DNA of 64,000 nucleotides, taken from contig CALQZQ010000005.1 in assembly GCA_943349825.1 (NCBI GenBank), forward strand, positions 1 to 64,000, in the 5' to 3' direction. Below the pieces are notes generated by a model, which was not told where the DNA came from, did not search any database, and saw only the letters and a program-made list of their open reading frames with translations. Source of the stretch: Candidatus Peribacteria bacterium. GTDB taxonomy: Bacteria > Patescibacteriota > Gracilibacteria > UBA1369 > 2-02-FULL-48-14. This document shows, piece by piece, positions 1-38,428 of the stretch. Numbering within the stretch: the stretch's first letter is position 1; each line of letters begins with the position of its first letter. The translations under genes were made by a program, and so were the position numbers.

Positions 1-2
1 AT

Positions 3-1286: not shown

Positions 1287-1290
1287 ACTT

Positions 1291-5722: not shown

Positions 5723-5746
5723 TAACGTTTTTAAAATTATTCTGAA

Positions 5747-6223
5747 TTATTGGATCTTACAGTTCCGCAAAATCACATTCATCAAGTAATCTGGTTTTTC
5801 ACCTGTTAAGGTAATTTGTTGTCCTTGGGTGAGGCCGGCCGCTTTTTCAAGCTCGGAATCTTCCAACATACATTGAACGCTTCCGATGATATCGCCTGTT
5901 TTTAGGGAAACATACATCGTATCCAATATATCCTTTCCGATTGAGGTAATCGTTCCGCTGACTTCGATGGTTTTGCCTTTATACTTTTCGTCGGCAGCTA
6001 CTTGATTGCCTTTGTAGTCAGAAAAGAGCTGAGATGCCGTTACAGTCGTAACTTCTTCAACGACCTCAGTGGTCGTTGCCGTATCGGTTGTTGAGGTGCT
6101 CTGTCCCTCCTTTGGGCTTCCTAAAGCTGAAACGATAGTGAAGAATAAGAAAACACTACCAATCCCTGTTAAGATCTTGTGACGTTTGAACCAACTTTGG
6201 TCCTGAGTGTGTTCGGTTGCCAT
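5747..6223 (-). CDS. Membrane-anchored OB-fold (tRNA_anti-like) protein
   Basis: N-terminal TM segment; ASQLFSDYKGNQVAADEKYKGKTIEVSGTITSIG pattern typical of tRNA_anti-like domains. Confidence 0.7.
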   Translation of the reverse strand: MATEHTQDQSWFKRHKILTGIGSVFLFFTIVSALGSPKEGQSTSTTDTATTTEVVEEVTTVTASQLFSDYKGNQVAADEKYKGKTIEVSGTITSIGKDILDTMYVSLKTGDIIGSVQCMLEDSELEKAAGLTQGQQITLTGEKPDYLMNVILRNCKIQ

Positions 6224-6304
6224 ACTTTCTTGGGTTAAAAGGTTAAGCTACAGGCATATTATCCGATTTTGGGTTATTATCAATCCTAAAATAGGATACT
6301 CTCT

Positions 6305-6520
6305 ATGAGCACAATAGCTTCAAAAGAGTATCGGGAAATCATCGAACGCCTTATTAAGGCCAGAAAAGATGCTGGTCTTACGCAAGTAGAGGTCGCAAAC
6401 CTTTTAGGTAAACCTCAATCCTTCGTTTCAAAAGTTGAAAGTCGGGAAAGGAGACTGGATATCGTAGAAATAAAGCAATTTGCAAGGATCTATAGGGTCA
6501 ATGTTTCAGATCTTATTTAA
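6305..6520 (+). CDS. XRE-family HTH regulator
   Basis: RKDAGLTQVEVANLLGKPQSFVSKVESRERRLDIVE helix-turn-helix. Confidence 0.9.
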   Translation: MSTIASKEYREIIERLIKARKDAGLTQVEVANLLGKPQSFVSKVESRERRLDIVEIKQFARIYRVNVSDLI

Positions 6521-6576
6521 GCGAGCCTGCAGCTCCCACGAGCTTTCGCCCGGGGAGCTGCGGGAGTCTGCTTAAA
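6516..6576. terminator. Two-tier hairpin between convergent genes
   Basis: Outer arms TTTAAGC/GCTTAAA (6516-6522/6570-6576), inner arms GCAGCTCCC/GGGAGCTGC (6529-6537/6553-6561). Confidence 0.6.
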
Positions 6577-8140
6577 ACTGTTTGATCCAAATATTTCCAA
6601 CAATGGTCTCGCCCTTTCCCGAAGAAAGGGCATGAAGGTCATCTCCTTGTGAATAAGGGAAAACTCGACTGACCTCTGCGATCAAGGAAGTGAGAGCATC
6701 CGCAAGATCATCGTGTTTTTCCGTGCCGAAGTCTAAAACTTGCTCGATGAGTTGCTCGGCTCCTTTCTTGGGAAATAAGACTCTTCCTGTTTCGAAATGC
6801 AGAGTGCTGTTAACAAGACGATCATGCTTACTCAGCCCCGAAACTTTCATCGCTGAAACGAAGAGCCCTTCGGCCTTCATCAATTGTATTAAATAATTTT
6901 GTGCAGCTACGTCCTCTACGACGAATCGAACCGTTTCTCTTGGGAACATTTCTTTATAGCGCTTTGCCTTGGCAATAATATTTTGCAGCGTTAGCTTTTC
7001 GTTGGTGACAAGTGGAAGGATGAAAATCCTCAAATTTTCTCCGTAGCCAAAGACATGGCAAGCCACCATCGCCGTGGAGTCAGCCGTATCTGAAAGGGAA
7101 ATGGCTGGGTCTATTCCAACGATGGTTCCTCGGTATTCGAACGGCTCTTTCTCAGGTTTTTTAGGCCAGGTTAAGACTTTGATCTGTCGCCCTAAGTAGA
7201 ACTCGACTTCCTCTTTGTCACCATGTATTTCTGGCATTGTCTCATAGAAAGCGATCCATTCTTTCTTAATCACTTGATCCTTTTTATCAACCAATTGTAA
7301 TAAATATTCACGTAAGAATACCTCTTCACGTCCAATGGTTTTTCTCAAATCTTCAATATCCTTTTCCGTTTTAAACTTCTGTGGCCACAAGCAGTCCCCA
7401 TTCTCATCTAAGAGCGGGTACTGTTTGTATACGCCGTCCATTTCACCTCCTGTTATACGAGCTTTTAGCCTCATCAAAAGCGAATCTCGATGAAGTTGGT
7501 TTCCAACAACCACGATGCGAGTGCCAACATCTCCAATTGGCAAAATTTCGCTCGTAAACCAGTCGTCAATTTTGTTCCTACCGTCACGGGTCTTCACGCT
7601 CGGAGTGCTTTCGATATCGTCCGCAATGATGAGGTCTGGGCGATATTGATTGTTTCTCATCCCACGCACGGATTGTTCCGAAGAAGCAACCGTGATGCGG
7701 GCACCATATTTTGGAATGATGAGAGTCGTCGCATTCCACTGTTCTTCGATCTCTTGGAATGGTCCAAGATCTGCCCTTAGGAGTTCGTTTTCCTCCAATA
7801 CTGTTTTTAAGTTTTTTAAGTGTGTCCGCGCTTGTTCCTGTGTTTCCGAAAGAATCAGGACAAACTTTTTCTGTTGTTTCCCAAGAATCGACCAGATCGC
7901 CAGTGAGGTATTGAGAATGGTGGATTTTCCAGATCCACGGAAAGACATCACGACGAGCATTCGTACCTTTTCATCCTCGCTGAGTTGAAACATTTCGTGA
8001 TGAAATGGTGCGAAGCCGTGAGTAATGTACGAAGGAAAATAAACTGAGAAAAATATTTTGTGGCTGTCTCTGGTAAGAGCTCGCCGTGCATCTTGGTTTT
8101 TAACCAAGGATTTAATAGTTTGTGGTGACAAATCGTTCAT
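6572..8140 (-). CDS. Phage terminase large subunit-like ATPase/nuclease
   Basis: MSFRGSGKSTILNTSLAIW Walker A, LIIADDIES Walker B, C-terminal IVGIDPAISLSDTADSTAMV and DDLADAL (RNase H-like nuclease). Confidence 0.88.
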   Translation of the reverse strand: MNDLSPQTIKSLVKNQDARRALTRDSHKIFFSVYFPSYITHGFAPFHHEMFQLSEDEKVRMLVVMSFRGSGKSTILNTSLAIWSILGKQQKKFVLILSETQEQARTHLKNLKTVLEENELLRADLGPFQEIEEQWNATTLIIPKYGARITVASSEQSVRGMRNNQYRPDLIIADDIESTPSVKTRDGRNKIDDWFTSEILPIGDVGTRIVVVGNQLHRDSLLMRLKARITGGEMDGVYKQYPLLDENGDCLWPQKFKTEKDIEDLRKTIGREEVFLREYLLQLVDKKDQVIKKEWIAFYETMPEIHGDKEEVEFYLGRQIKVLTWPKKPEKEPFEYRGTIVGIDPAISLSDTADSTAMVACHVFGYGENLRIFILPLVTNEKLTLQNIIAKAKRYKEMFPRETVRFVVEDVAAQNYLIQLMKAEGLFVSAMKVSGLSKHDRLVNSTLHFETGRVLFPKKGAEQLIEQVLDFGTEKHDDLADALTSLIAEVSRVFPYSQGDDLHALSSGKGETIVGNIWIKQF

Positions 8141-8151
8141 ATAAAGGGTTG

Positions 8152-8565
8152 TTATTGATTAAGTTCTCCTGGATCTAAGGCGGCCAACTTTAGGGCTTTT
8201 TCGATGTTTTCTACTTGCTCAGGTGTCAGCGTTTTGCCGATGGTCTCGAGCCGTCCTGAGAGTTCCACCCGTGTTCTGTAGTCAGGGTGTTGATTTTTTA
8301 GCCAGTAAATAATGGCGGTCATGTTGCCATCCCTTATGGCCTTGATGAGCTGTGACTCTGCGAGGTCACTGATGAGGCTTTTACCCGTGCACATGGCTTC
8401 ATCTGCAGCATCTGCAAACTCTGGGTCTTCCTTGCGCCAACGGTAGTAGCTCGCACGCCCAACGCCTTCTTTCTCACAAGCAATTTGGACTATGGGTGTT
8501 TTCTTGAGCTGCTCCACGAGTCTGGCTTTGTTTTCTTCCGTTTTGGTCGGGACTATTTCATTCAT
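8152..8565 (-). CDS. Terminase small subunit-like / HTH protein
   Basis: TPIVQIACEKEGVGRASYYRWRKEDPEFADAADEA HTH; directly upstream of terminase large subunit. Confidence 0.7.
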   Translation of the reverse strand: MNEIVPTKTEENKARLVEQLKKTPIVQIACEKEGVGRASYYRWRKEDPEFADAADEAMCTGKSLISDLAESQLIKAIRDGNMTAIIYWLKNQHPDYRTRVELSGRLETIGKTLTPEQVENIEKALKLAALDPGELNQ

Positions 8566-9329
8566 AGTGATGGGGTTATTTTTACGGCTTTGATACCAGT
8601 CAGTTTTTCGAAGCGGTCTATGATGGCTTTGCAGTACTTTTCTTCAAGTTCGACCATGACGCATTTCCGTTTCGTTTGTTCGCAAGCCATCATCGTGGAT
8701 CCCGATCCCCCGAAGGGGTCATAGACGATGTCTCCGATATTCGTGCTGTTGAGAATGAGTCGGCGTATAAGGCTCACTGGCTTCATCGTCGGATGAATCG
8801 TATTTTTCTTGGGCTTGGGTGCAATGAGCACGCTTTTGTCTTTGTCTCGTATCGGTGGATGTGTTCCGTGCCAGCCGTATGCAATCAATTCGTGCTGTGG
8901 GCAATAATCCAGCCGACCAATGACTGCGCCGGTCTTTACCCAAATTAGGAGCTGTGAAAACTTGAACCCTTGCGTCCGTAGAGCGTCTTCAAGGCTGAAT
9001 AGCATTCGGTCACTGTTGAAAATGTAGTAAGCATTTTTCTTATCCAAGTGTGGCTTCACTACTTCCAGCCAACGCTCCGTAAAGCTTTGGTACTCTTCGC
9101 TGGACTGAAGTTGGTCGTTTGCGATTTTGTCGTGCTTGCCACTAGGTGCCGTGTACGACACCCCATAGGGCGGATCAGTGAGGATGAGTTTCACTTTCTT
9201 TTCGTGAAGCAGGTTGTGGATTAGACCTTTATCCTGACTATTTCCGCAGAGGAGCAAGTGATCACCAAGGCTGAAAGTGTCGCCGGGCTTAATTGAGTTT
9301 GATTGGTTTTTGGCCTGTAAGGTTTTCAT
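8562..9329 (-). CDS. DNA methyltransferase (N4/N6, DPPY type)
   Basis: LILTDPPYGVSYTAPSG and VYDPFGGSGSTMMACEQTKRKCVMVELEEKYC. Confidence 0.88.
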   Translation of the reverse strand: MKTLQAKNQSNSIKPGDTFSLGDHLLLCGNSQDKGLIHNLLHEKKVKLILTDPPYGVSYTAPSGKHDKIANDQLQSSEEYQSFTERWLEVVKPHLDKKNAYYIFNSDRMLFSLEDALRTQGFKFSQLLIWVKTGAVIGRLDYCPQHELIAYGWHGTHPPIRDKDKSVLIAPKPKKNTIHPTMKPVSLIRRLILNSTNIGDIVYDPFGGSGSTMMACEQTKRKCVMVELEEKYCKAIIDRFEKLTGIKAVKITPSL

Positions 9330-10560
9330 GTCTGAGTAGGATTAGAGAGCAAAATAAAGGATCGAGCTCCACGAGGTAGCAGGTGCGTTTGAGTTGTTCG
9401 GCAGCGACTAGAACACTGCCGCTGCCCCCAAAGATTTCTAGTATGATGTCTCCGGGTTTCGTGCAACGCCGGATTGCACGTTCGTAGAGCGAAGGTGGTT
9501 TCTCCGTCGGGTGCGAATAACTGGCAGAAGGAAGGCGTTTCTCGAGCCAAATGGAGAAGAGGTCTAGGACATCACCGTGAAGTCGGTTTCCCGTGCCTAG
9601 CTCCTTGTTCATAACCTCCGTGAAATTGGTGTGGTACGTGGAAAGGAAGGGGTCACCTCGGGTACCGTATATACAAGGTTCGTAGACCTTGGAAAATGCG
9701 ACTTGAGGTGTGCTCATCTGCGAGTTCTTGAGCCAGAGGCATACGCGCTTGTTTTGGATGCCGACTTCATCATAAATCTGTTGCACTTGGCCAATTTTCC
9801 TTTCGTCGTTCCATGTGAAGAAATGTGCATCAGGTGTTGTGAATGCTATGGTGTTTTGGATGCAGGTTTTGAGAAACTCTTTGTATTCGGCAGGTGGCTT
9901 GTTGTCCTTAACCTTCGAACCCTGGTACTTGTTTCTCGTCCCAATCCCATTCGAGTATGAGAGTCCGATATTGTATGGCGGATCCATCGTCACAAAACTC
10001 ACTTTTGTGTTTCCGAGTAGGACTTTTAAAGTTTCTGGCTTCATGGAATCTCCACAAGCCAAACGATGCTTTCCAAGTGCGTACACGTCGCCTTCTTTTA
10101 CGAACGGCTCTTTGATTTTCTTTATTTCCTCCTCTATATCGAAATTGTCGTCTTCCACCTCGATGAAGTCATCAAAAACTCTTTGCAGGTCGGAGTCGTC
10201 GAAACCAACATCAAGTAGTAGATCGATGTCGAACTCCTTGAGAAGTTCCATATCCCACTCTCCTGTATTTCTATTAAGCCTCAGGTTGAGTTCTTTTTCC
10301 TTCTCGATATCGGGTATTTTAAGATAAATAACAGGTACTTTTTCGAAGCCAAGCTCTTTAATAACCTCTAAACGAAAATGACCTCCAATTACGATATTTC
10401 TTCTATTTGGTGCGGAGTTCACCAGAATCGGGTCTACTATCCCAAACCTCTTAATACTTTCGGTTAAATCCTTTACTGCTTTCGGCGGACGTTTCCTAGG
10501 ATTATAAGGAGCCGGATTCAGCTCATTAACTGGCACCATTACAATATTTATTGGTTTCAT
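9289..10560 (-). CDS. ParB-like N-terminal domain fused to DNA methyltransferase
   Basis: MKPINIVMVPVNELNPAPYNPRKRPPKAVKDLTESIKRFGIVDPILV (ParB-N), then FVTMDPPYNIGLSYSNG and ILEIFGGSGSVLVAAEQ; start moved to internal Met. Confidence 0.85.
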   Translation of the reverse strand: MKPINIVMVPVNELNPAPYNPRKRPPKAVKDLTESIKRFGIVDPILVNSAPNRRNIVIGGHFRLEVIKELGFEKVPVIYLKIPDIEKEKELNLRLNRNTGEWDMELLKEFDIDLLLDVGFDDSDLQRVFDDFIEVEDDNFDIEEEIKKIKEPFVKEGDVYALGKHRLACGDSMKPETLKVLLGNTKVSFVTMDPPYNIGLSYSNGIGTRNKYQGSKVKDNKPPAEYKEFLKTCIQNTIAFTTPDAHFFTWNDERKIGQVQQIYDEVGIQNKRVCLWLKNSQMSTPQVAFSKVYEPCIYGTRGDPFLSTYHTNFTEVMNKELGTGNRLHGDVLDLFSIWLEKRLPSASYSHPTEKPPSLYERAIRRCTKPGDIILEIFGGSGSVLVAAEQLKRTCYLVELDPLFCSLILLRHENLTGQKPIKLN

Positions 10561-10664
10561 ACAAGGGCTTGGATTAAAAAATAGAAATGCTAAAACTGCG
10601 CTGCGCAAGCGGAGCGTAATCTTGTTAATCCGGTTAAGCTAAAGGTTAAATCCGGTTAAAGTTG

Positions 10665-11471
10665 TTATTGTTTCATGAAGACCTCTGATAGCTCGATTGT
10701 GTTGTCTGGTTTTCTTATCAGGAAACTATCCGTTATTGTTTTACTGGGTTTTGGCTTCATGGCTTTGATTTTATTTGCGAGCGTTCGTTTCAGATTTCTG
10801 AAGGCTTGATTCGTGTATTCATATTTGAACTCTTTTTCCACGAGTGCTGACAAAGGTACTTTCCTTTGATATTCGGTTAGGGCCAGGTTGAAAAGCATTT
10901 GTGGAAAACTGCCTTTAATGAAAGTGTGTATTTTTTTGTTTTGATAAGAAATCCTACCAGTGCTGGTGTCGAAGTAAAGATGCTCGGTATCCATTTCAGG
11001 AGGGACAATGTTCTCTTTCGTGTAGTTTAAATCGTTGAGAGCACTCAGCTTAAGATTGTGAGTTACAACTGTATTGAGTTCTTTTGCACGTCTTTTTGCT
11101 TCAAATACAGCATTACTGAGCTTTGATTCTCCTTTTATTTGGATTTCATTTTTTCCATTTTGTACGAAAATAAAAGGTTTTATTCCTTGGAATAAAGAAT
11201 TTTTCTTAGGATCAGTCTTTTCAAGAAACTCCTGAATCCAAACTAATGCTGGAGTTTTTAATTTTGTGTTTTTCTCAGTATTTAAATACTTGCATAAGGG
11301 TGCTAAGAAAACTGCATCCAAAAAATTAAAGTAATCTCTGACTAAATAATGAAATTCAGAAACCTTTTTAAGATCTTCGGAAATAGGTTCGTCTAAAGTG
11401 TAGGTTTGTATCAAATCTACTTTATCGTTCAGGAGACTTATAGCGTCGGTCTTATTTAATGCAATAGACAT
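10665..11471 (-). CDS. Conserved hypothetical in phage-like block
   Basis: 268 aa ORF with intact start and stop, same direction as methylases. Confidence 0.6.
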   Translation of the reverse strand: MSIALNKTDAISLLNDKVDLIQTYTLDEPISEDLKKVSEFHYLVRDYFNFLDAVFLAPLCKYLNTEKNTKLKTPALVWIQEFLEKTDPKKNSLFQGIKPFIFVQNGKNEIQIKGESKLSNAVFEAKRRAKELNTVVTHNLKLSALNDLNYTKENIVPPEMDTEHLYFDTSTGRISYQNKKIHTFIKGSFPQMLFNLALTEYQRKVPLSALVEKEFKYEYTNQAFRNLKRTLANKIKAMKPKPSKTITDSFLIRKPDNTIELSEVFMKQ

Positions 11472-11524
11472 TTGAATACTTAAATTTTTTCTTTGCTAAA
11501 ATATACCACGGTTTGTTCACGCCT

Positions 11525-11659
11525 ATGACCAAACTTAACAAAAATCAGAAAAGAGATAAACTCCGCTTCACGGTCACTTTTTGTGAAGATGAAGAAGAAA
11601 ATGAACGTGCTTTTGAAAATGCCGTTCGTATCATTTTAAGACCGCCTCAACGTGACTAA
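11525..11659 (+). CDS. Small ORF (44 aa) overlapping the zinc-ribbon gene
   Basis: MTKLNKNQKRDKLRFTVTFCEDEEENERAFENAVRIILRPPQRD*; stop overlaps the GTG start at 11652. Confidence 0.5.
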   Translation: MTKLNKNQKRDKLRFTVTFCEDEEENERAFENAVRIILRPPQRD

Positions 11660-12746
11660 GTATCTCAAAGAACGAGAATACTACGAAGACCGCTACGACC
11701 GGTCTACTGTTGATGGTGCTCGCTGGTATGAAAACCGAATTGAAAAAATAGAGGGGTCCAAAAAATCTCGCCACATTCTTTCGAATCTTATGCTCTACTG
11801 CTACACAGGTCAGCGATGGAAGAGTCGTGAGGAGACCATCAGCCACTGGATGCAGAGAGACCGGGCTTACGACGATATGATGGAAAACACGCCGGTTCCT
11901 AAAGATGTGACTTGTTTTATGTGTAATCGGCCGATGGAGCTCATGGACAGGTTTGGCCACTATGGTTTCGGCAAAGACCCCCATCGTATTGATTTTTACT
12001 TCAGATGCGCAGACTGCCACGTTGGTATGAAGATCAAGGATGGCGTGAGGGAGCACATGATTCCTTGGATGTGTCCGAAGTGTAAAAGGCGGATGAAGTC
12101 GGAGTCGAAGAAGACTAAAAATGAAATCCGTACCCGTGATTGGTGCGAATACTGTGGCTATCAGAAGGAAGATGTTTTTGATCTGACCCCTCCTGAGCCC
12201 GAAAAGGTTGTGGAAGTGGATCAGGAAGAGGAACGCCGATTTCGGGAGGATAAGCTTCGGTTTTGTTTAAGCAACGACGAAGGGTTTGAATACGAAAGGT
12301 CTGTGAGGAGGATGGAGGATGTGAAAAGAGTCATGGATGATATCCATGCTCGTGAAGAAGAACGCAAGGGACGCTTAAAAGACCATCCAAAAGGCTTTGC
12401 TCTTGAAGAAGGTGGCTATAGCTGTTTCATGTGTGGAGAACACCTTCCACCTTTCGACAACTGGTACGACAAGTATGGCATAAAGTGCATGAGCTGCCAG
12501 CACGCTTTGGAGCGTCGGACGGTGCCACTGAAATACTTCAAGAATCACAAGCTTTGGTACACGTCTTATCAACTGCAGTCCGAGTTTAAGCTCCATTCCC
12601 AAACGATTCGTAAGCTTGTCCGGGAGGGAAAGTTAAAGGCCCATTTGATTGAAGGCGCGAATGGGCGTGCGGGGTTTTATGTGTTTCCGAAGAAGGAAAA
12701 TAAAGAGGTTTTGATTTTACTGAAGTCGTCTGTAGTAGAGGCTTAA
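11652..12746 (+). CDS. Multi-zinc-ribbon protein with C-terminal HTH-like segment
   Basis: CFMCNRPM, CADCHVG, CPKCKRRM, CEYCGYQ, CFMCGEHL, CMSCQHA CxxC knuckles; LQSEFKLHSQTIRKLVREGKLKAHL. Confidence 0.7.
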   Translation: MTKYLKEREYYEDRYDRSTVDGARWYENRIEKIEGSKKSRHILSNLMLYCYTGQRWKSREETISHWMQRDRAYDDMMENTPVPKDVTCFMCNRPMELMDRFGHYGFGKDPHRIDFYFRCADCHVGMKIKDGVREHMIPWMCPKCKRRMKSESKKTKNEIRTRDWCEYCGYQKEDVFDLTPPEPEKVVEVDQEEERRFREDKLRFCLSNDEGFEYERSVRRMEDVKRVMDDIHAREEERKGRLKDHPKGFALEEGGYSCFMCGEHLPPFDNWYDKYGIKCMSCQHALERRTVPLKYFKNHKLWYTSYQLQSEFKLHSQTIRKLVREGKLKAHLIEGANGRAGFYVFPKKENKEVLILLKSSVVEA

Positions 12747-12795
12747 GTTTATAAAGTATCCAAAAGGAGTATAGTCTTTTGGTATAAACATCTGC

Positions 12796-13278
12796 ATGAA
12801 ACAAAAAGACCTTCTCCAGGTTACTCAAGAACAACTTTCTAGGACTCTATCATTTTTTCCACGAGCTGAAACGAAAGCTTCGATAATACTAGGGATTAAT
12901 ACTGGTCTGCTTGCTTTGGTTGCATCCAAATTTGAAGCACTATGGTGTTTTGAGTATTGGATGCTCGTAATTTTCATTCCTCTTATTCTGAACAGCTTAA
13001 GTATTTTCTTTTTATACAAAAGCTCTTCTCCTCAGCTTGATGGAGGTGATCATTCACTGGTTTATTTTAGAGGAATCTCAACGTTAAAAGAGAAAGATTA
13101 TATTCAAAAATTTTCAAAGCAGAGTACAAATGATCATATCAACGATATGTTGGCACAGATCTGGAGGAATTCAGAGATCTTGAAGGTGAAATATGACTAT
13201 CTAAGGTATTCCTATATTTTATTGTTAGTATCTATAGTTCCAGTATGTATCACTCTAATACTTTTTAGTTATGAGTGA
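12796..13278 (+). CDS. Pycsar effector-like membrane protein (PycTM/DUF5706-like)
   Basis: 160 aa; FFPRAETKASIILGINTGLLALVASKF N-terminal pattern, TM segments at both ends, overlapping a nucleotide cyclase gene. Confidence 0.8.
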   Translation: MKQKDLLQVTQEQLSRTLSFFPRAETKASIILGINTGLLALVASKFEALWCFEYWMLVIFIPLILNSLSIFFLYKSSSPQLDGGDHSLVYFRGISTLKEKDYIQKFSKQSTNDHINDMLAQIWRNSEILKVKYDYLRYSYILLLVSIVPVCITLILFSYE

Positions 13279-13960
13279 CTTTGAAGATGAATTGATTAGA
13301 GATGTAGGACAGGTTTTAGCCCAAGAATGGTCTCTTAGAACTGGACAGGTGGTTCCAGGAACAGAAGATATCGCTCTAACTGGAGGAGGCGTAACTCTTA
13401 ATGCTACGATGCTCTATGCAGACTTAGCGCGTTCAACAGAGTTACTCTCTTCTTTTGACAAACGGGTCGTCGCAAAAATTATCAAAAGTTTTTTGGCCTG
13501 TTGTGCCAAAATCATTACAAGAGGAGGTGGAGAAATAAGAAGTTTCGATGGTGATCGAATCATGGGTGTTTTTATTGGTGACTCAAAAAATACCAATGCT
13601 GCAAAAGCAGCTATGAAAATTCATTATGCAGTTCAGTTAATTCTTAACCCTAAGCTGAAGGCGAAATACGCCTCTTTAGCAAATACTAAGATCGAACATT
13701 GTGTGGGAATTGACACTGGAGAAATGCTCGTAGTTCGAAGTGGTATAAGAAATAGCAATGATTTAATTTGGGTAGGTCATGCGGCAAATATGGCCGCGAA
13801 ACTGAGTGAAGTGAGGGATCCTCCCTACTATACCTACATAACAAGTGATGTTTTCAAAAAACTAGCTAATGACGGCAAGTATGCAGACTCTGGGAATGGT
13901 CCACTAATGTGGATTGAGACTAATGGTTTCTATAAATCAAACTACCATTGGAGGCCTTAA
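13271..13960 (+). CDS. Class III nucleotide cyclase, PycC-like
   Basis: ATMLYADLARSTELLSSF...GGGEIRSFDGDRIMGVFIG...GIDTGEMLVV...GHAANMAAKL cyclase catalytic pattern; overlaps the effector gene. Confidence 0.85.
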   Translation: MSDFEDELIRDVGQVLAQEWSLRTGQVVPGTEDIALTGGGVTLNATMLYADLARSTELLSSFDKRVVAKIIKSFLACCAKIITRGGGEIRSFDGDRIMGVFIGDSKNTNAAKAAMKIHYAVQLILNPKLKAKYASLANTKIEHCVGIDTGEMLVVRSGIRNSNDLIWVGHAANMAAKLSEVRDPPYYTYITSDVFKKLANDGKYADSGNGPLMWIETNGFYKSNYHWRP

Positions 13961-14014
13961 AATTCTTGAGACTCGGGTGAGGAACGAATGATACTAAAAA
14001 CTGTAAGCCAGTTT

Positions 14015-15580
14015 TTACCTTAGGTTTTGGATTTTTACTACGGAGACCTTATAACCTTGATTCCTTAAACTCTTTGACACGTGCATCAAAGTCATCTTGC
14101 TGAAGAAAGGTATATCTAAGTCTTTTTTTGTATTGCTTATAATCCCAAAAATAACAGTATATTCTTCCCCGTTAGTGTTTGGACGACCATTAATATCTTT
14201 GATCAGAAAATCAGGTGATTTAAGCTCGTCGTTTACTTTTTTCCTAAATTCAGGGTCAAAAAGAAATTCTGCCGACACATAACCCTGATTAAACAAATGA
14301 CTAAGAGTTGCAGATCCAGAATATCTTTTGTTGTGTATAAGCTGCCTCTCTTTGGTATAGACGTCACAAAATTCGAATGTACTTTTCCCTACAATAGGGA
14401 TCAAGTGTGCGTCGACAAGTAAGGCTGAATTAGCTTTTGCTAAAGCTTGATTATATTCACCTTCATTGTCGTGATCGTAGTCAATAAAATTGATACCACA
14501 GGTATCATGTAAAGTTGTTGACCAGAATTTACTGACTGTATCTACTAGATCCGTTTTTACTTCATACCATTTGCCGCCACTCAAAAAGAATGCAACTCCT
14601 GCCTCGTTATATTCGAAATAAATGCATTCATATATCTGCCATGCGTCTTTTGTGAATTGATTTGATGTTGAGAATCTAAATATCGAGTTATCTTCAAGAT
14701 CGTTTAGCTCAACAACTGTTTTGCCACTATTTTTCAACCATTCCTTAAAAGAGCTGATATGAATATCATCCATAATTGCCTCTTTTTTGTTATTCGAGTA
14801 TCTAAAACCACCGTGATCAGTCCAGTCTAATATCTCTGGGATTGTTAACCATAACTTTTCGGGTGATGCTTCATTGATTTCTTTGACTAACTTTTCGTTT
14901 AGCTCAAGTATTTTTTTGCCATCCTGGATTTCCTTTAAGTTATCGATCCACCCAAATTCAACCTTATAATCAGGTTTTTGATACTGTTCCAATGCTGTCT
15001 TCATTATTTCTTTCAAATCTGTCAGATCACATTTGACTGAGACTCTAAGGTAATCTTTACCGTAAAGGATTTTTCCTAGAGCGTCGATTTTCGATTCTCC
15101 GACAACACATCTAACTAAATCTTTTTCTACATCTAGGCCGAACTCATCTGTCGTTACAGGCCTTGCTGATTGGATTCTCGTCTGAATCCCTTCAGATTCT
15201 AGTGTTTTCGTGTCAACACTTTTTAGTGAATTTGGATGAATTGAGTTTAAAGTAGTTATCAATCCAAACCTTTCCTCTATGACGCCGTTTCTAAAAAAAT
15301 GCCTACTTGCTGGACCGAAGGTTAATGCGAAAAATCTATTTTCAACTGTCATCAAGAATAATCCACTCGCACTTGCCGAGAATAAGTGGTTTAAATCTAA
15401 GTTCGGAAATAAATTTTTCCAAACTGGTGGTTTTGTAAATGATGCATTCTGTGAATAAAATGTTCCAACATCAGTTATCCTTGACTCTAATCCGCCTTTT
15501 AAGATTTCTTGTTCTGATTGTGCAAACTCTTTAATCAGGTAAATGGCGAGTGCGTGTGTTTTCTTTGTACTAGATGACAA
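14015..15580 (-). CDS. TIGR04141/DUF6119-like protein (sporadic, often defence-associated)
   Basis: 521 aa; HALAIYLIKEFAQ N-terminus and TVENRFFALTFGPASRHFF segment resemble this family; next to Pycsar pair. Confidence 0.65.
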   Translation of the reverse strand: MSSSTKKTHALAIYLIKEFAQSEQEILKGGLESRITDVGTFYSQNASFTKPPVWKNLFPNLDLNHLFSASASGLFLMTVENRFFALTFGPASRHFFRNGVIEERFGLITTLNSIHPNSLKSVDTKTLESEGIQTRIQSARPVTTDEFGLDVEKDLVRCVVGESKIDALGKILYGKDYLRVSVKCDLTDLKEIMKTALEQYQKPDYKVEFGWIDNLKEIQDGKKILELNEKLVKEINEASPEKLWLTIPEILDWTDHGGFRYSNNKKEAIMDDIHISSFKEWLKNSGKTVVELNDLEDNSIFRFSTSNQFTKDAWQIYECIYFEYNEAGVAFFLSGGKWYEVKTDLVDTVSKFWSTTLHDTCGINFIDYDHDNEGEYNQALAKANSALLVDAHLIPIVGKSTFEFCDVYTKERQLIHNKRYSGSATLSHLFNQGYVSAEFLFDPEFRKKVNDELKSPDFLIKDINGRPNTNGEEYTVIFGIISNTKKDLDIPFFSKMTLMHVSKSLRNQGYKVSVVKIQNLR

Positions 15581-15725
15581 TTTTTGATCTTAAATCAATG
15601 CCAGACTACAACAATAATTGCGCATTAGCAATCCGCCCTTTTTATACTGTCTCAAGTGTCTCATTTAGCCTGAAACACCACAATTGTGTCTCACGGCAAG
15701 AAACGGTAGGATGAGACAGTCCCAA

Positions 15726-15753
15726 GGGTACTAGACCCGAGTGGCCAGCCAAT
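15726..15753 (+). repeat. Cassette repeat R1
   Basis: GGGTACTAGACCCGAGTGGCCAGCCAAT. Confidence 0.9.
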
Positions 15754-15840
15754 GCCTTTTCGAGGATAGCTTTTGGAGCAGGCGTGGTAGACGTTCGAAC
15801 TTTTTAAGCGTATCTTTCTATCATATTTAAAAGACACCCT

Positions 15841-16326
15841 ATGAAAAAATTTACTTCATCGCTTCTCGTACTTTCTCTTCTCACTTTAAGCTCTTGTGAT
15901 TCGACTACTTCTACTGTTGAAGATGCCGAAGAAATCGAAAATACAGAGGCACCGATTACTGCTCCAGTGGTGACTTCACCCAAGAATGGAGATTCTGGTG
16001 AATCTTTCGTTTTGAGCGGAAAGGCTGAGCCTAATACAGAAATTTGGTGGTTGAGCTACAATGAAACTTGTCTATCTGAGAATACTTTTTGGTCTGGTGG
16101 CCAAGAGATTCCAGTTGATGCAAATGGCAACTTTTCTATCGATCTGGACACTACTTGGTTTGGTAATACAGAACCAAGTGAAATTCTCGTCCTTTCTGTT
16201 GATCCTGGTGTCCGTGAACTCAATGGGTATTCTGGAAAAGATGGTTCTTGTTTCCCATCTGAATATGTTACTGATCCTATCGAAATCAACTATACAGGCG
16301 AGTTGAGCGGATGGATGACTCAGTGA
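15841..16326 (+). CDS. Lipoprotein (cassette 1)
   Basis: MKKFTSSLLVLSLLTLSSC lipobox. Confidence 0.8.
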   Translation: MKKFTSSLLVLSLLTLSSCDSTTSTVEDAEEIENTEAPITAPVVTSPKNGDSGESFVLSGKAEPNTEIWWLSYNETCLSENTFWSGGQEIPVDANGNFSIDLDTTWFGNTEPSEILVLSVDPGVRELNGYSGKDGSCFPSEYVTDPIEINYTGELSGWMTQ

Positions 16327-16342
16327 TAATCATCGTTCGAAC

Positions 16343-16365
16343 GGCATCTACGGTTCCCAGCCAAT
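16343..16365 (+). repeat. Cassette repeat R2 (degenerate)
   Basis: GGCATCTACGGTTCCCAGCCAAT; only the CCAGCCAAT end matches well. Confidence 0.5.
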
Positions 16366-16385
16366 ACCTTCGCTAATTCATCCTT

Positions 16386-17183
16386 ATGAATAAAGTTATA
16401 AGCTCACTATTGTTCACGGCTTTCATGTTTTTGTCTGCTTGTAGCCCTGCTATTGGTCAAGATGAGGCTTGGAACATGACAGTGAATTTTTTCCAAAATT
16501 ATGCAGGAGAACCCGAGTTAAATATTGCGGCCGAAATCGATACAGATGAATCGAGTTTTGTTTTTCAAACTTTTAACCAGGAAGAAGATTCGGATGAATT
16601 CAAAGTCACTGGCAAGTTGAGTTGTGAAGGCCAGGAGGGAGATTTTACAGTGGATTGGAATCTAGATGAGAACAATGCATGGACTTTGAAAGATGTTTCC
16701 CTTTATGGATGTGAATACTCTGCGAAACGTGCAAGTGATATTTCTCGTACGACTTTTTTACAAACGATTGCGATTGCTCTGGAGTTTTCTTTTGTTGACG
16801 AAGGGTCTTACCCAGATTTTCCAGATGGGCAATGTTTTGAGTCTGCCGCAAATTCCATTGAACCTTTCAGCAGTATCATGAATACCTATGGGTCTAAAGA
16901 TGATTTCCGAGATACTGGATATTTAGATTATTCTTCAGTTTTATGTCAGGCGTATCCTTACTATATTTCATATGAGGATGGCATGGGCTATGCCCTGATC
17001 GCTGAAGTCCTCGATCCTAATAATTTTACTGAAGCACTTCGCTCTGATGCATTTTGTGACTTAGATACAAGTTCCTTGAATCAGGTCGATTCTTTGGAAG
17101 AGCTTGAGGATAGTCTGACTCCGCTTAGCCAATGTCCTGAAGGAAAGAATGTGTTTTATATTTCCATTCGAAAAGGATACTAG
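16386..17183 (+). CDS. Lipoprotein (cassette 2)
   Basis: MNKVISSLLFTAFMFLSAC lipobox; stop codon TAG lies inside repeat R3. Confidence 0.8.
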   Translation: MNKVISSLLFTAFMFLSACSPAIGQDEAWNMTVNFFQNYAGEPELNIAAEIDTDESSFVFQTFNQEEDSDEFKVTGKLSCEGQEGDFTVDWNLDENNAWTLKDVSLYGCEYSAKRASDISRTTFLQTIAIALEFSFVDEGSYPDFPDGQCFESAANSIEPFSSIMNTYGSKDDFRDTGYLDYSSVLCQAYPYYISYEDGMGYALIAEVLDPNNFTEALRSDAFCDLDTSSLNQVDSLEELEDSLTPLSQCPEGKNVFYISIRKGY

Positions 17184-17200
17184 ACCCACTTAGCCAGCCA
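17175..17200 (+). repeat. Cassette repeat R3
   Basis: GGATACTAGACCCACTTAGCCAGCCA. Confidence 0.85.
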
Positions 17201-17212
17201 TGAGTTGCATGA

Positions 17213-17236
17213 CAAAGCCTTGTGGACCCGCAAGGC
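17213..17236. terminator. Hairpin, probable terminator for the minus-strand sigma operon
   Basis: AGCCTTGTGG...CCGCAAGGCT hairpin immediately after R3. Confidence 0.55.
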
Positions 17237-17261
17237 TAGTTTGCTGGGATAGGTGACTTTC

Positions 17262-17483
17262 TTAAATTTTTTCCAGCTCCCAGTCAATTAAAGCAGCCGC
17301 CTGTTCTGATAGTTCAGAAGACTTGTAATCAATTAAGTTACCGCTAGCTCTTCCACAGCTTAATGTTCCTGATTCATTAGGTATATAAGCAAACCCATTA
17401 GGGTAAGTTTCTTTTAATTTGCTACTTACTTCTTCACAGCTTGTTCCTGGGTCAGCCGACACACCGGCGATGCGTGATCTCAC
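17262..17483 (-). CDS. Small protein coupled to the sigma factor
   Basis: 73 aa; GTG start overlaps the TGA stop of the sigma gene by 4 nt. Confidence 0.5.
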   Translation of the reverse strand: MRSRIAGVSADPGTSCEEVSSKLKETYPNGFAYIPNESGTLSCGRASGNLIDYKSSELSEQAAALIDWELEKI

Positions 17484-18247
17484 CTCACATCTTTCATCGC
17501 TTCTCTCAACTTTTTCAGAGCCGCCCCTTTTAGGTGAAAAACTCTTGAGGAAGAAATACCTAGTTCTCTTCCGATACTACTCAGCGTGACTTCATCTGTG
17601 GTATCCTCTTCTAAATAGTAGGCTTCTAGGATTCTACGCTCTCTTGGTTGAAGCACCTCGCCGGTCATTGCATTGCTTAAAGTCAGGTCAAATTCTCGTT
17701 GGATTAAGTCTGCTTCTGCATCTCCGTCATAGGCAATTTTTCTTAGGTCATGGTCTGGAAGTTTGTCTAAAGAAGCTTTTTTCATTATTAGATTTTTCTC
17801 CCGCCTCACACGAAATCTTTCTACAGATATCTGTAAAGATTCAGCCATCTCTTCAACAGTCGGGGGAGTACCGTCGGGTTTTGTTAAGTGGTCCCGTGCT
17901 TGAGCCATCCTGTGTGCTGCGGCTCTGATTCTTCTTGGTACGAAATCATTTTCTCTAATAAAGTCTAGCATTGCACCCCTAATCCTAGGCCTTACATATG
18001 CCTCTAATTTCACTCCCCTGCTTGGATCAAAAGACGAAGTAAGCTTTAGTAAGGCTATTTGTCCCTCTTGGATTAAATCATCCAAATCTTCTGGTCTCAA
18101 CTGCAACTGGAACATTAGTTTTCTTGCAATCTGGTCCACCGCTTTAGATAAACCACCAGCTGTAGTCTCTATACTAGAGGGGACCACAGCTCCGACGACT
18201 ATATCTGGCGTGCTTCCAATCGAATCTTCGTTTATTGAATCAAGCAT
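17480..18247 (-). CDS. Sigma-70 family factor (FliA/SigF-like, group 3)
   Basis: DDLIQEGQIALLKLTSSFDPSRGVKLEAYVRPRIRGAMLDFIRENDFVPRRIR and ERRILEAYYLEEDTTDEVTLSSIGRELGISSSRVFHLKGAALKKLRE. Confidence 0.9.
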   Translation of the reverse strand: MLDSINEDSIGSTPDIVVGAVVPSSIETTAGGLSKAVDQIARKLMFQLQLRPEDLDDLIQEGQIALLKLTSSFDPSRGVKLEAYVRPRIRGAMLDFIRENDFVPRRIRAAAHRMAQARDHLTKPDGTPPTVEEMAESLQISVERFRVRREKNLIMKKASLDKLPDHDLRKIAYDGDAEADLIQREFDLTLSNAMTGEVLQPRERRILEAYYLEEDTTDEVTLSSIGRELGISSSRVFHLKGAALKKLREAMKDVR

Positions 18248-18310
18248 TGGGAAAATAATGTACAGCTAGAGTAACATTTTTTACTATTTTGGCAATAGTC
18301 GTAGCTATGC

Positions 18311-18336
18311 GTAATAGATCCGAGTGGCCAGCCAAT
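18311..18336 (+). repeat. Cassette repeat R4
   Basis: GTAATAGATCCGAGTGGCCAGCCAAT. Confidence 0.85.
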
Positions 18337-18346
18337 TTTGTTTAAG

Positions 18347-19531
18347 CTAGTAGGCAAGATACACGATGCCATCCACAGAGTAAACCACCACGGGGACGCC
18401 CGCGACAATCTCTCCCTGCCCTTGAATCGTTTTGGTTTCTCCATCATTCATTTTATATTCTACCCCATTCCATAGGGCTGTCGTGCGATGCCCGGCGTTA
18501 TTGCGAGCATCCTTTGCCGCAGCGGCATCTACATAATCCACCCAGACTGCCCCGAATACTCCGTTAGACACAAAAGGGGATACAAATTTCCCCGTTGAAT
18601 CTAAGACCGTATCTTTCCAAGTTTTTCCATCCGTCGTTGTTCGCAGGTGAGCTTCGGCACCAAGATGATAGCCGATCGCAATAGCATTACCATCGACGGA
18701 AATAGCGGGATCGTATCCAGAGGAAATAACTGTCTCATTGCTTCCGTCGAGATTGGCGGTGCGTATCGAATCGAAACCGCTCGACCCTTCTACCGATCGA
18801 TCGTCGCGCCACACAAGCGTGGAGCCAGATATCGCCACGATGGCTGTCGTTGTGTTGAGTGTTGAGAGCTCCCAACCGTCAACCCCATTCCCTACAGCAA
18901 TCTGCAACGCGCCAACACCATCCATAGCACCGGTTTGTGCATTCGTCTTTGGTGCATCGACCCATACCACGGCAAAACCGTCACCAGTCCAATCCATCGA
19001 TGGGATGGGGCCGCCATCCTGTTCGCGAGCACCAACGGTAGCTGGCGTTGTCCAGGTTATTAAATCTGTACTCGATGATGCCATGATTGCCGTGGAGGTC
19101 ACCCACGCGACAACAACGCGATCCTCACTTGCAGCAATCGTTGGACCACCCGTTGAAGGTTGAAGAGTCGTGACCCGATGTCGCTGACCATTTGATTCAA
19201 CGACAATAATATCCGTACCATCGGTCAGTACAACGAGAGGCTCTTCGTTCCAATTCGTTATTGCGCGTTGGGAGCGCAGTGGCAACGATCCGGATCCAAG
19301 TTCTATCACGTTCTTAAATGCTGAAACCGTTGTGCCTTCATTAGGAGTTTCTTGACTGGACGATTCTCCGGAATCTGCCGTTTCTTCTGTATCCATTGGG
19401 ATATTGCCAGCTGAGGGCGAAAGGTAGCCGGGATCATTGGTCGCAATAATAACAATCACCGTTACCCCAATAGCAAGAACAATGATACCTATGGATAACA
19501 AAACGAATCGTGAAGTGGAAAGGCTGCGCAT
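18347..19531 (-). CDS. Secreted/membrane-anchored beta-propeller (BNR/sialidase-like)
   Basis: N-terminal TM; repeated pattern such as TDLITWTTPATV, TTDGKTWKDTVLDS. Confidence 0.7.
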   Translation of the reverse strand: MRSLSTSRFVLLSIGIIVLAIGVTVIVIIATNDPGYLSPSAGNIPMDTEETADSGESSSQETPNEGTTVSAFKNVIELGSGSLPLRSQRAITNWNEEPLVVLTDGTDIIVVESNGQRHRVTTLQPSTGGPTIAASEDRVVVAWVTSTAIMASSSTDLITWTTPATVGAREQDGGPIPSMDWTGDGFAVVWVDAPKTNAQTGAMDGVGALQIAVGNGVDGWELSTLNTTTAIVAISGSTLVWRDDRSVEGSSGFDSIRTANLDGSNETVISSGYDPAISVDGNAIAIGYHLGAEAHLRTTTDGKTWKDTVLDSTGKFVSPFVSNGVFGAVWVDYVDAAAAKDARNNAGHRTTALWNGVEYKMNDGETKTIQGQGEIVAGVPVVVYSVDGIVYLAY

Positions 19532-19614
19532 AGGCCGTTCTATTACTAAAATTATTAATCCCTAACTCGAGCGTACTTCTTTCTTTTCGCCGCTGTCAAC
19601 GTTGACCTACGGAT

Positions 19615-19696
19615 CTGAAACCCCACAATTGTGCCTCACAGCAAGAAACGGTACCATGACACTGTCGTAAGGGTACTAGACCCGCTTAGTCAGGCC
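19615..19696 (+). repeat. Cassette repeat R5 with extended upstream homology to R1
   Basis: Core GGGTACTAGACCCGCTTAGTCAGGCCA at 19671-19696; 19615-19670 matches 15670-15725 at roughly 85% by eye. Confidence 0.85.
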
Positions 19697-19714
19697 ACCC
19701 ATTAACAAAATAAG

Positions 19715-20230
19715 ATGAAAAAATTACTCTTCGTTTCAAGTCTTTGTTTACTTGTAGCTGGATGTTCCACAGAGGACATGGCGAACAACCCAGCTTCAAT
19801 CGCGGAAAATACTGATCTACGTAGGCAAGTGGAGCTTTTGAAGGCTGAGTTTGAGTGTGTTCAGGAACCCACTCAATCACTTGTTTGGGAAGAGGTGAGT
19901 TTTGAACTACCTTCCTGCTGGACTCATGAAGAAACTGTAGATGCAAATCTTGTACCTACCCTTCACTTGGCAATGGAAGGACATGAAGATGTATCTTTGG
20001 AAGTAACTTTGCTTAGGGACTATATTGCTCCAGATGATCGAGGACCTGCTGAGAATCAAATTGGAACCAACTATTACTATCAATTTTTAGCGGGTATGGA
20101 TCAAGATGTTTTTGTCCTTGAGGACGAACCCTACCAACTAAATATTCTCACGCCTGCAGCGGATTATGTAGCGACGGACCCTCTTGTGTTAGACATCTTA
20201 GCGTCTGTAAAACCTCCCAAAGGTTACTAG
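19715..20230 (+). CDS. Lipoprotein
   Basis: MKKLLFVSSLCLLVAGC lipobox; stop TAG lies inside R6. Confidence 0.8.
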   Translation: MKKLLFVSSLCLLVAGCSTEDMANNPASIAENTDLRRQVELLKAEFECVQEPTQSLVWEEVSFELPSCWTHEETVDANLVPTLHLAMEGHEDVSLEVTLLRDYIAPDDRGPAENQIGTNYYYQFLAGMDQDVFVLEDEPYQLNILTPAADYVATDPLVLDILASVKPPKGY

Positions 20231-20250
20231 ACCCGTTTAGCCAGCTTAAT
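20222..20250 (+). repeat. Cassette repeat R6
   Basis: GGTTACTAGACCCGTTTAGCCAGCTTAAT. Confidence 0.85.
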
Positions 20251-20314
20251 AATAAATATGATGTATGAATGTTTATGATCCTCAAGAACTAGTTCCTTAT
20301 TCCCCAGGACAAGG

Positions 20315-21094
20315 ATGAACTATCTAGACTATTTCTTCGCTTATTATAGGAAATATGCCTTTAAAAGGCGTCTATTTTACCCAACAGGGTGGCATCTGTT
20401 TTTAGGCCTTTTCTTGGGTGTTTTGACTTATGGATTCGCAAGAGAAATCACTGCTTGTCCCGATTTGAAATGCGATTCAGCTTTATTTATAGCTTTTTTT
20501 ACAATTTTCATTTATTTCTTGATTTTGAAGTTGTGGTTTTACATGAAAAGGGTCTTTCTCTATCCCTTCATGAGGACCTCCTTTGCGGCCACTTTTTTGG
20601 GCCTTAGTGTTATTCCGCTTATTTTTTGGACTCAGTTCATTCCTCTTGTTTATCTTGGCGCGGGTTTGTTGATTTGGGGAGGCCTTAGGAACTTCTTTGG
20701 GATTTTAAAAAAAATAGGAAGCTCGAACGGGAAAGATTTTTTTTATCTCTCACACGACTATATTTGGATATTTCCTCAAAAAAAGACCTGGTGTTTGATC
20801 GTGTGTGCTGATCGTGAACCAGAAAATATTAAATCTTTTTTAAGCGAGATTCTACCATTGGGACTTAAAAAAATCATATGCATTGGAGAGTCTGGAGAAT
20901 GGATTTTAGAGAAAAGTAAGAGCTTGGGATTGGATGTGAGTTCAAAGTATTATCCTAACCTTGAAGATGCCTTCAGTCATTCCCTCGTTGCTCAAGGTGT
21001 TGAAGTCGTCTTTATAGTTGATCTAACGGGTGGAACTTATTTAAAACAAGCCAAATCCTTTTTTGACTTTCGGTCAAAATTGGAGTTACGCTGA
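20315..21094 (+). CDS. Membrane protein of unknown function
   Basis: Four or so hydrophobic N-terminal segments, soluble C-terminal domain. Confidence 0.65.
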   Translation: MNYLDYFFAYYRKYAFKRRLFYPTGWHLFLGLFLGVLTYGFAREITACPDLKCDSALFIAFFTIFIYFLILKLWFYMKRVFLYPFMRTSFAATFLGLSVIPLIFWTQFIPLVYLGAGLLIWGGLRNFFGILKKIGSSNGKDFFYLSHDYIWIFPQKKTWCLIVCADREPENIKSFLSEILPLGLKKIICIGESGEWILEKSKSLGLDVSSKYYPNLEDAFSHSLVAQGVEVVFIVDLTGGTYLKQAKSFFDFRSKLELR

Positions 21095-21101
21095 ATCGTC
21101 T

Positions 21102-21129
21102 GATTACTAGGCCCGAGTGGTCAGCCAAT
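21102..21129 (+). repeat. Cassette repeat R7
   Basis: GATTACTAGGCCCGAGTGGTCAGCCAAT. Confidence 0.88.
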
Positions 21130-21140
21130 AATATTTTTTT

Positions 21141-21590
21141 ATGAAATACAGATCTTTTCAGACTGAGGACTCAGCTGAGGTAAAAATGATGATTCATCAG
21201 TACTATTTAGAAGATCATCCGGATCAAGCACTGTCGGATGAGCAGGTGGAGAGAACTTTGGATGAATTTTTGAGGCATCCTGAAAAAGGTGCAGTGCTCT
21301 TGCTGCTGGAGAAGGGGGCAGTGCTTGGTTACAGTATTCTGGTCTATTTTTGGAGCAACGAAATGGGTGGAGACATTGTTAATATTGATGAACTTTTTGT
21401 AAAAAGTGAGCATCGAGGAAAAGGTCTTGGGACTGCTTTTGTTAAGAGCCTTATCGAGGATCGATTCAAGGATTGTGTTCGTATTGAACTTGTCACCACT
21501 CCTCAAAATGAACGTGCACGCAAACTTTACAGTAGCCTTGGGTTTTCAGCTGGCAAAGATTTTCACATGGAATATTCTTTCACCGTTTAA
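21141..21590 (+). CDS. GNAT-family N-acetyltransferase
   Basis: IDELFVKSEHRGKGLGTAFVKSLIE...NERARKLYSSLGF. Confidence 0.9.
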   Translation: MKYRSFQTEDSAEVKMMIHQYYLEDHPDQALSDEQVERTLDEFLRHPEKGAVLLLLEKGAVLGYSILVYFWSNEMGGDIVNIDELFVKSEHRGKGLGTAFVKSLIEDRFKDCVRIELVTTPQNERARKLYSSLGFSAGKDFHMEYSFTV

Positions 21591-21597
21591 ATTGCTT

Positions 21598-21798
21598 ATG
21601 AAGCCGGCGTTTTTACTTCTGTTGACCTTGTTCCTTGTCGCTTGTTCAAAAGAAGAAGAGGCCGATATTTTGGTCAGTTGTGGAGACCTTTCTTCTTACG
21701 AAGATTGTGAAAGGGCCGAACAGTGTGTTTGGCAATTCAGTGACCTTGATCCTCAGACTCTTCAAATCATGAGTCCGTCGTATTGTAGAGAGCTTTAA
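21598..21798 (+). CDS. Small lipoprotein
   Basis: MKPAFLLLLTLFLVAC lipobox; internal start of the 130 aa ORF. Confidence 0.7.
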   Translation: MKPAFLLLLTLFLVACSKEEEADILVSCGDLSSYEDCERAEQCVWQFSDLDPQTLQIMSPSYCREL

Positions 21799-21812
21799 GT
21801 AGCGTAAAATAT

Positions 21813-21840
21813 GGGTTACTAGACCCGAGTGGCCAGCTAA
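21813..21840 (+). repeat. Cassette repeat R8 (last copy seen)
   Basis: GGGTTACTAGACCCGAGTGGCCAGCTAA. Confidence 0.9.
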
Positions 21841-21854
21841 ACCATCAATAAAAA

Positions 21855-21886
21855 AAGCCCTGCGGTTGTCCCACAAGGCTTTTAAG
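21855..21886. terminator. Rho-independent-like hairpin
   Basis: AAAAGCCCTGCGGTTGTCCCACAAGGCTTTT. Confidence 0.65.
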
Positions 21887-21903
21887 GAAGTTTCTTTGCC
21901 TTT

Positions 21904-35828: not shown

Positions 35829-36134
35829 CGTGAATCTTGAAACCCCAAACCCAAGAATAGAAGTTAGTGCACCTTCTGTTCAGCATGGAGCGCTCAGAGA
35901 AAGTTCATGAACTTTCTCTCCGCTTCCTTTCATGTTTGATGCTTTCCAGAAGATGCACTAACTTCTCTCTGTTGTGGAATTTCAAACTCTCTTTCGGACG
36001 TTTGGGCCCTGCTTGTTTTTTGAAGCATAACCCTTAAGGAATAAGCTATGAGGATCATGCATCCGAGTTGCTTCGCTCCTGCTTCAAAAAACAAGCAGGG
36101 CCTTTAGAGTGGAAGAAGGGTTTCAAGATTCACG
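35829..36134 (+). repeat. Double-hairpin element, copy A
   Basis: Outer 17 bp inverted repeat CGTGAATCTTGAAACCC/GGGTTTCAAGATTCACG; hairpin 1 arms 35859-35878/35947-35966; hairpin 2 arms 36005-36027/36080-36102 (23 bp perfect). Confidence 0.92.
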
Positions 36135-38156: not shown

Positions 38157-38428
38157 CAATTGGGACATATTTATTTTTTTGAAGCGGGAGCGAAGCTACT
38201 CGGATGCATGATCCTTGTACCTTCTTCCTTAATGTTTATGCTTCAAAAAAATAAATATGTCCCAATTGGCCGAAGAGGGTTTGAAACTCCATAACTGAGA
38301 AAAGCTAGGGCACCTTCTGGAAAGCATCAAACATGAAAGGAAGCGGAGAGAAAGTTCATGAACTTTCTCAAAGCGCTCCATGCTGAGCGGAAGGTGCCCT
38401 AGCTTTTGTTCTTAGGTTTTGGGGTTCA
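38157..38428 (-). repeat. Double-hairpin element, copy B (inverted relative to A)
   Basis: Hairpin 2 arms 38157-38185/38240-38268 (29 bp perfect); hairpin 1 arms 38300-38319/38388-38407; reverse complement aligns with copy A. Confidence 0.92.

Follow-up and report, generated by a model that had tools for sequence, protein, structure and literature searches.

Mobile gene arrays of several kinds are known. Integron arrays consist of one-gene units whose sites share a single orientation, and the gene's stop codon falls inside the site or close to it. Additive flexible genomic islands at tRNA genes, such as that at tRNA-Lys in 'Candidatus Methylopumilus', carry mostly unknown genes between repeats of the last 20 nt of the tRNA, and vary in size down to 330 bp and one coding sequence (PMC10872708). 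Tycheposons, as described in the same paper, are tRNA-anchored cargo elements of 4-200 kbp in streamlined genomes, described with a tyrosine recombinase. Staphylococcal cassette chromosome (SCC) and enterococcal cassette chromosomes, which use Ccr large serine recombinases, insert at the 3' end of a housekeeping gene, form tandem composites separated by direct repeats, and include recombinase-less segments, the serine recombinase being held by the autonomous element (PMC6222049, PMC5964201 and, in part, general knowledge). Here we describe an array of short repeats and small gene units in the first 64,000 nucleotides ("the window") of contig C5 (CALQZQ010000005.1) of a Candidatus Peribacteria genome (G000; GCA_943349825.1), which we think is probably made of small integrative gene cassettes that accrete one behind another at the 3' end of tRNA-Gln.

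The array is like each of these systems in part. It has the one-gene, one-orientation design of integrons, but is without attC, attI or an adjacent integrase and is anchored at tRNA-Gln. It differs from the additive islands in that its repeat is a 28-nt look-alike of the tRNA end, about 16/28 identical, with stop codons packed against it. Unlike SCC, its target is tRNA-Gln, its units are of about 0.4-2.3 kb and often hold one gene, and a serine recombinase is a candidate only; unlike tycheposons, no tyrosine recombinase lies in the fetched site loci. Judged from sequence comparison, this is a real, mobile, tRNA-Gln-anchored cassette array, with additive tRNA islands and serine-recombinase cassette chromosomes as its nearest kinds; the site, the host and the compact one-gene units are new here. 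A description of this array type was not found in the literature searched, coverage of which was partial.

The repeat and its units

The features of the array are as follows, with sites numbered R1 to R8, gene predictions resting on open reading frames (ORFs) unless a Pfam family is named, and bit scores from the site profile described below.

1-15728, strand not assigned: upstream truncated integrative element, ending on the right in the leader at R1; contig C5 starts at base 1
15637-15728, plus: right-end leader (TTTTTATACTGTCTCA..GTCTCA...AAGGG) ahead of R1, conserved in relatives
15724-15752, plus: site R1, AAGGGTACTAGACCCGAGTGGCCAGCCAA, 51.8 bits
15753-16350, plus: unit 1, lipoprotein gene 15841-16326, no Pfam match above cut-off
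16346-16370, plus: degenerate site R2, CCCAGCCAATACCTT alone kept, below the profile threshold
16371-17177, plus: unit 2, lipoprotein gene 16386-17183, stop within R3
17173-17201, plus: site R3, 33.1 bits
17202-18311, both genes minus: unit 3, sigma-70 family factor 17480-18247 (Pfam Sigma70_r2 and r4) and a 73-aa ORF 17262-17483
18307-18335, plus: site R4, 34.2 bits
18336-19673, minus: unit 4, 394-aa predicted exported protein 18347-19531 (minus), then a partial leader 19615-19673
19669-19697, plus: site R5, 34.7 bits
19698-20224, plus: unit 5, lipoprotein gene 19715-20230, stop within R6
20220-20248, plus: site R6, 35.0 bits
20249-21104, plus: unit 6, membrane protein 20315-21094
21100-21128, plus: site R7, 30.7 bits
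21129-21816, plus: unit 7, GNAT 21141-21590 (Acetyltransf_1, 8e-16) and small lipoprotein 21601-21798
21812-21840, plus: site R8, the final site, 38.6 bits

The first-pass annotation had described seven clear copies of the repeat in one orientation and a degenerate one, R2, and had proposed a search of the whole genome. Both strands of the whole assembly (1,246,678 bases in 12 contigs, 98.8% complete) yielded the same seven copies, all on the plus strand, at 15729, 17178, 18312, 19674, 20225, 21105 and 21817; they span 6.1 kb, there is no eighth copy on either strand, and shuffled sequence gave 0 full-repeat matches. A profile of 30 nt was built for the site (itself 28 nt, consensus AAGGGTACTAGACCCGAGTRGCCAGCCAA), and this scores the window copies at 31-52 bits and sites overall at about 20-53 bits, against a background maximum of 5.2 bits in 188 kb. 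The profile misses R2 (about 16346-16370), which has only CCCAGCCAATACCTT in common with R1 (a 14-nt match) and whose place, about 20 nt past a stop codon, is that expected of a site; it is a remnant site only. Because the copies are confined to one place in the genome, rather than spread evenly through it, the array is local and the repeat is not an uptake sequence or general terminator.

The stop codon TAG does lie inside R3 and R6, and R4 and R5 do keep their orientation though they flank minus-strand genes, both as had been claimed. Plus-strand stops fall at -10 to +40 nt of the site in 32 of 57 sites, versus 9% at random positions, and compact one-gene units ending at the site are a trait in common with integrons. 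Of the payloads named in the annotation, the GNAT and the sigma factor are borne out by Pfam, while the lipoproteins, the propeller and the membrane protein have no significant Pfam match. The partial leader of unit 4 matches the R1 leader over 79 nt at 84% identity. A distant homologue (34%) of the unit 1 lipoprotein lies inside a true integron array of genome G005 (L096 2401-2739).

Anchoring at tRNA-Gln

The profile finds the site in 26 of the 89 genomes searched in the order (Peregrinibacteria), singly or in same-strand clusters with a spacing of 0.4-2.3 kb. A pattern search of named genomes found ten contigs, seven assigned to Candidatus Peregrinibacteria and three to Patescibacteria group bacterium or bacterium; the exact pattern was without a match in viral contigs, and viral carriage is thus not supported. 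About 20 site-bearing contigs also hold a tRNA-Gln gene, which without exception is upstream of the site and shares its strand, and the contigs with sites but without tRNA-Gln mostly end a short distance upstream. These loci include composites in tandem at a single target gene, with direct repeats as their limits.

An ungapped alignment places the site on the final 28 nt of tRNA-Gln, covering the T-stem GGG, the loop of 7 nt, then CCC and the CCAGCCA terminus; in exact register the two are identical at 14-18 of 28 positions, whereas only about 1e-4 of background 28-mers reach 16. In G048 the tRNA and the site both end CCAACCA, and the first site of G061 is chimeric, TGTACTAGACCC being joined to the host tRNA 3' end TCATCCCCAGCCA; these variants support descent of the site from the tRNA, or exchange with it. 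G021 fits partly, as its sites end CAACCA like its own TTG tRNA and not like the adjacent CTG tRNA. What separates the units is a look-alike and not a faithful copy of the tRNA 3' end, although near-exact copies occur in a few loci, such as those of G061 and G048. Separately, insertions of about 100 nt were seen directly after tRNA-Gln, ending in a near-exact copy of the tRNA 3' end (L053 2372-2475, L232, L233, L251) and carrying an inverted repeat (GGCGGTAGGAT...ATCCTACCGCC in L053).

Unit mobility in relatives

Comparison of strains, also proposed in the first-pass annotation, revealed gain or loss of units between congeners. Relative to its congener, one of the pair G036 and G048 has about 3.1 kb, two units, inserted at the tRNA-Gln 3' end; G042 and G052 differ by a similar insertion of about 2.0 kb, and two further units follow a site that is decayed in G042. 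In the G085 assembly, contigs C35 and C73 have one tRNA-Gln in common and cease to match immediately after CCAGCCAA, giving two alternative continuations which split exactly at the tRNA CCA, where contig C16 also ends. G048 (family f14) and G052 (family f13) have in common a unit, 86% identical, which abuts tRNA-Gln in the former and is flanked by two sites in the latter; the homology begins exactly at CCAGCCA, the preceding sequence being the tRNA in one and a site in the other. A second unit is common to G048 and G060. Comparison of the genomes thus shows the limits of the units, their tRNA anchor, their horizontal spread and both empty and filled sites; insertion at the tRNA 3' end, with its empty and filled states, is seen in relatives and would apply by extension to G000.

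A toxin-antitoxin unit is common to G001 and G048 (76% DNA identity), but its borders are without clean sites. A toxin-antitoxin-like gene pair with 80-84% protein identity was noted in two families, beside sites in both (L048 6066-6578; L053 4921-5476).

Proposed mechanism and candidate recombinase

We propose that each unit begins immediately past CCAGCCA, usually holds one gene, and ends on the right in a 28-nt site (AAGGGTACTAGACCCGAGTRGCCAGCCA) that mimics tRNA-Gln in its T-arm, acceptor strand and CCA terminus. Exchange would occur within or beside the common CCAGCCA; such exchange would therefore leave the tRNA intact and provide a new acceptor site after each insertion. Catalysis would be in trans, most likely, though this is uncertain, by a 433-440 aa large serine recombinase found in the biggest elements of this family (G016, G021, G073).

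Several large serine recombinases of the order are encoded just downstream of tRNA-Gln, pointing back at it, and these form two groups. Group 1 (c47) comprises the 433-440 aa proteins, with Resolvase, Recombinase and zinc ribbon domains, and the G016 and G021 elements that hold them span from tRNA-Gln to a far-end leader and site matching those of the array. Group 2 (L256, L276, L277, L278, L279, L281) comprises proteins of 500-590 aa, adjoining tRNA-Gln without such sites, with the C-terminal end overlapping the tRNA gene in several loci. We take the group 1 enzyme as the best candidate.

Certain findings weigh against tRNA-Gln cassettes moved by such an enzyme. None of the arrays has a recombinase next to it, G000 has no detected serine recombinase, and an intact c47-type enzyme was found in three genomes only and is absent from most site-bearing genomes. 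The left ends of units have only A-rich bases in common after CCAGCCA, an unexpected pattern for a serine integrase, which needs two half-sites, and when the left and right ends of the G016, G021 and G085 elements were compared no consistent attP/attB pair could be defined. In addition, there is no tRNA-Gln within the window (the G000 assembly holds the TTG gene only), and the search for gmk, used below to place the tRNA, was a single query with no positive control.

Upstream element and setting in the genome

Positions 1-15.7 kb of the window encode the C-terminal part of a helicase-like protein, type III-like modification/restriction genes, a terminase-like protein, two DNA methylases and DUF6119. 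Window 1-2513 is homologous to G085 contig C73, where the matching region begins about 2.1 kb after tRNA-Gln, and window 5747-11471 is homologous to the serine-recombinase-bearing element of G016. Relatives of the leader were found in G004 and G016 (about 79-81% identity over 114-117 bp) and in G003 (97% over 65 bp), where it precedes unrelated genes.

The congener G001 has gmk next to tRNA-Gln(CTG), and after them a lipoprotein gene with a weak site at its end. The G001 genes before gmk have their G000 counterparts at the very end of contig C4 (133,816 bases; the match runs to 133,536, leaving 280 bp). Since the C4 end matches in this way, gmk was not found, and the start of C5 matches the post-tRNA region of G085, we infer the order C4, gmk, tRNA-Gln(CTG), C5, which would put tRNA-Gln(CTG) in the assembly gap upstream of C5. 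It would then be followed by the larger element filling window 1-15.7 kb, and then by the cassettes. Elsewhere on the same contig, a repeat of about 170 nt, 80-82% identical, occurs in both orientations (window 35935-36107 and 38162-38331; L044 4308-4477).

Alternative explanations

The alternative that survives best, though we consider it unlikely, is that the mover is a tyrosine recombinase, either the host XerD or an enzyme lost from the sampled genomes, with CCAGCCA as a 7-bp overlap. The 7-bp identity at the exchange point suits such enzymes, XerD-type enzymes were found in all 59 genomes searched, and many site-bearing genomes are without a detected serine recombinase. However, no tyrosine recombinase was found in the fetched site loci, nor near the copies in this window, where the first-pass annotation had suggested looking, and the elements sharing the tRNA and end sequences hold serine recombinases only. 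Nor was a dif-like role seen. The site was detected in only 26 of 89 genomes, although XerD-type enzymes are universal among the 59 searched; a terminus signal was sought in G053, a single 998-kb contig, but its GC skew has one sign throughout and is hence uninformative. That skew is about -0.23 to -0.40, with no switch, in 22 stretches around the chromosome (L141-L160, L091, L052); a comparable strand disparity in a different candidate-phyla genome is suggested by the title of PMC7143001.

We regard as improbable, and place next, the idea that there are no dedicated cassettes, and that large serine-recombinase elements inserted repeatedly at tRNA-Gln and were each deleted down to one gene. 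G085 contig C35 does retain the left end of an element, and a leader with its site, in 1.7 kb without a recombinase gene, and leaders persist in some units. Against this stand the stop codons placed against the site far above chance, and one small unit found in two families with its boundaries intact.

The first-pass annotation saw the logic of integron cassettes here and suggested either a divergent attC class or a different cassette-capture system. The cassette-capture logic is supported by bounded units, homologous units across families, empty sites in congeners and packed stops, whereas the divergent attC class is not supported. A divergent integron, with the repeats as attC-like sites for an integron integrase, would account for the compact single-gene units, the one site orientation and the stops inside sites, and G000 does encode an IntI-like protein, on contig C12; we nevertheless judge it very improbable. 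A covariance model, built from five attCs of the order's own integrons, recovered about 50 attCs, including one beside that C12 integrase (C12:6229-6356, E 2e-16), yet with filters off it found none in the array, and with these positive controls integron membership is rejected. The C12 enzyme is also rejected as the array recombinase, as it is encoded away from the array and adjoins its own canonical attC array. Site-bearing genomes G001, G003, G021 and G047 are without an IntI-like match, the insertion point is the tRNA-Gln 3' end and not attI, and compensatory pairs in the T-arm hairpin and dyad were not beyond chance, the shuffle test for a 3-bp hairpin being of low power.

True integrons do occur in Peregrinibacteria, in the form of canonical attC arrays and an IntI-like recombinase of 289 aa, which falls under the NCBIfam cut-off for integron integrases; their contigs often end just upstream of the integrase (L042, on contig C12 of G000, 4940-5809 and 6229-6356; L091, L094, L096, L097, L098, L106).

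Least probable of all is a conserved RNA, terminator or uptake sequence in place of a recombination site, for although the repeat has a T-arm-like hairpin and often stands just past stop codons, its orientation in the window is independent of gene strand, its seven copies are in one place only, Rfam gives no match for it, its pairings lack compensatory changes beyond chance, and it is tied to tRNA-Gln.

Implications

Tandem cassettes at tRNA-Gln thus remain the account that we favour. We tentatively raise the further possibility of a second, independently evolved cassette-capture system, with dedicated single-gene cassettes, a tRNA-Gln-mimic site and a trans-acting recombinase, parallel to and coexisting with integrons. 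If a serine recombinase drives the array, it would be a small-cassette analogue of the cassette chromosomes. The integron-like architecture is separable from the integron machinery, the compact one-gene, one-site design being made here from other parts. The genomes of candidate-phyla bacteria are tiny, and few ways in which they gain genes are known; tRNA-Gln is one clear hot spot, and it offers a searchable site and units common to different families.

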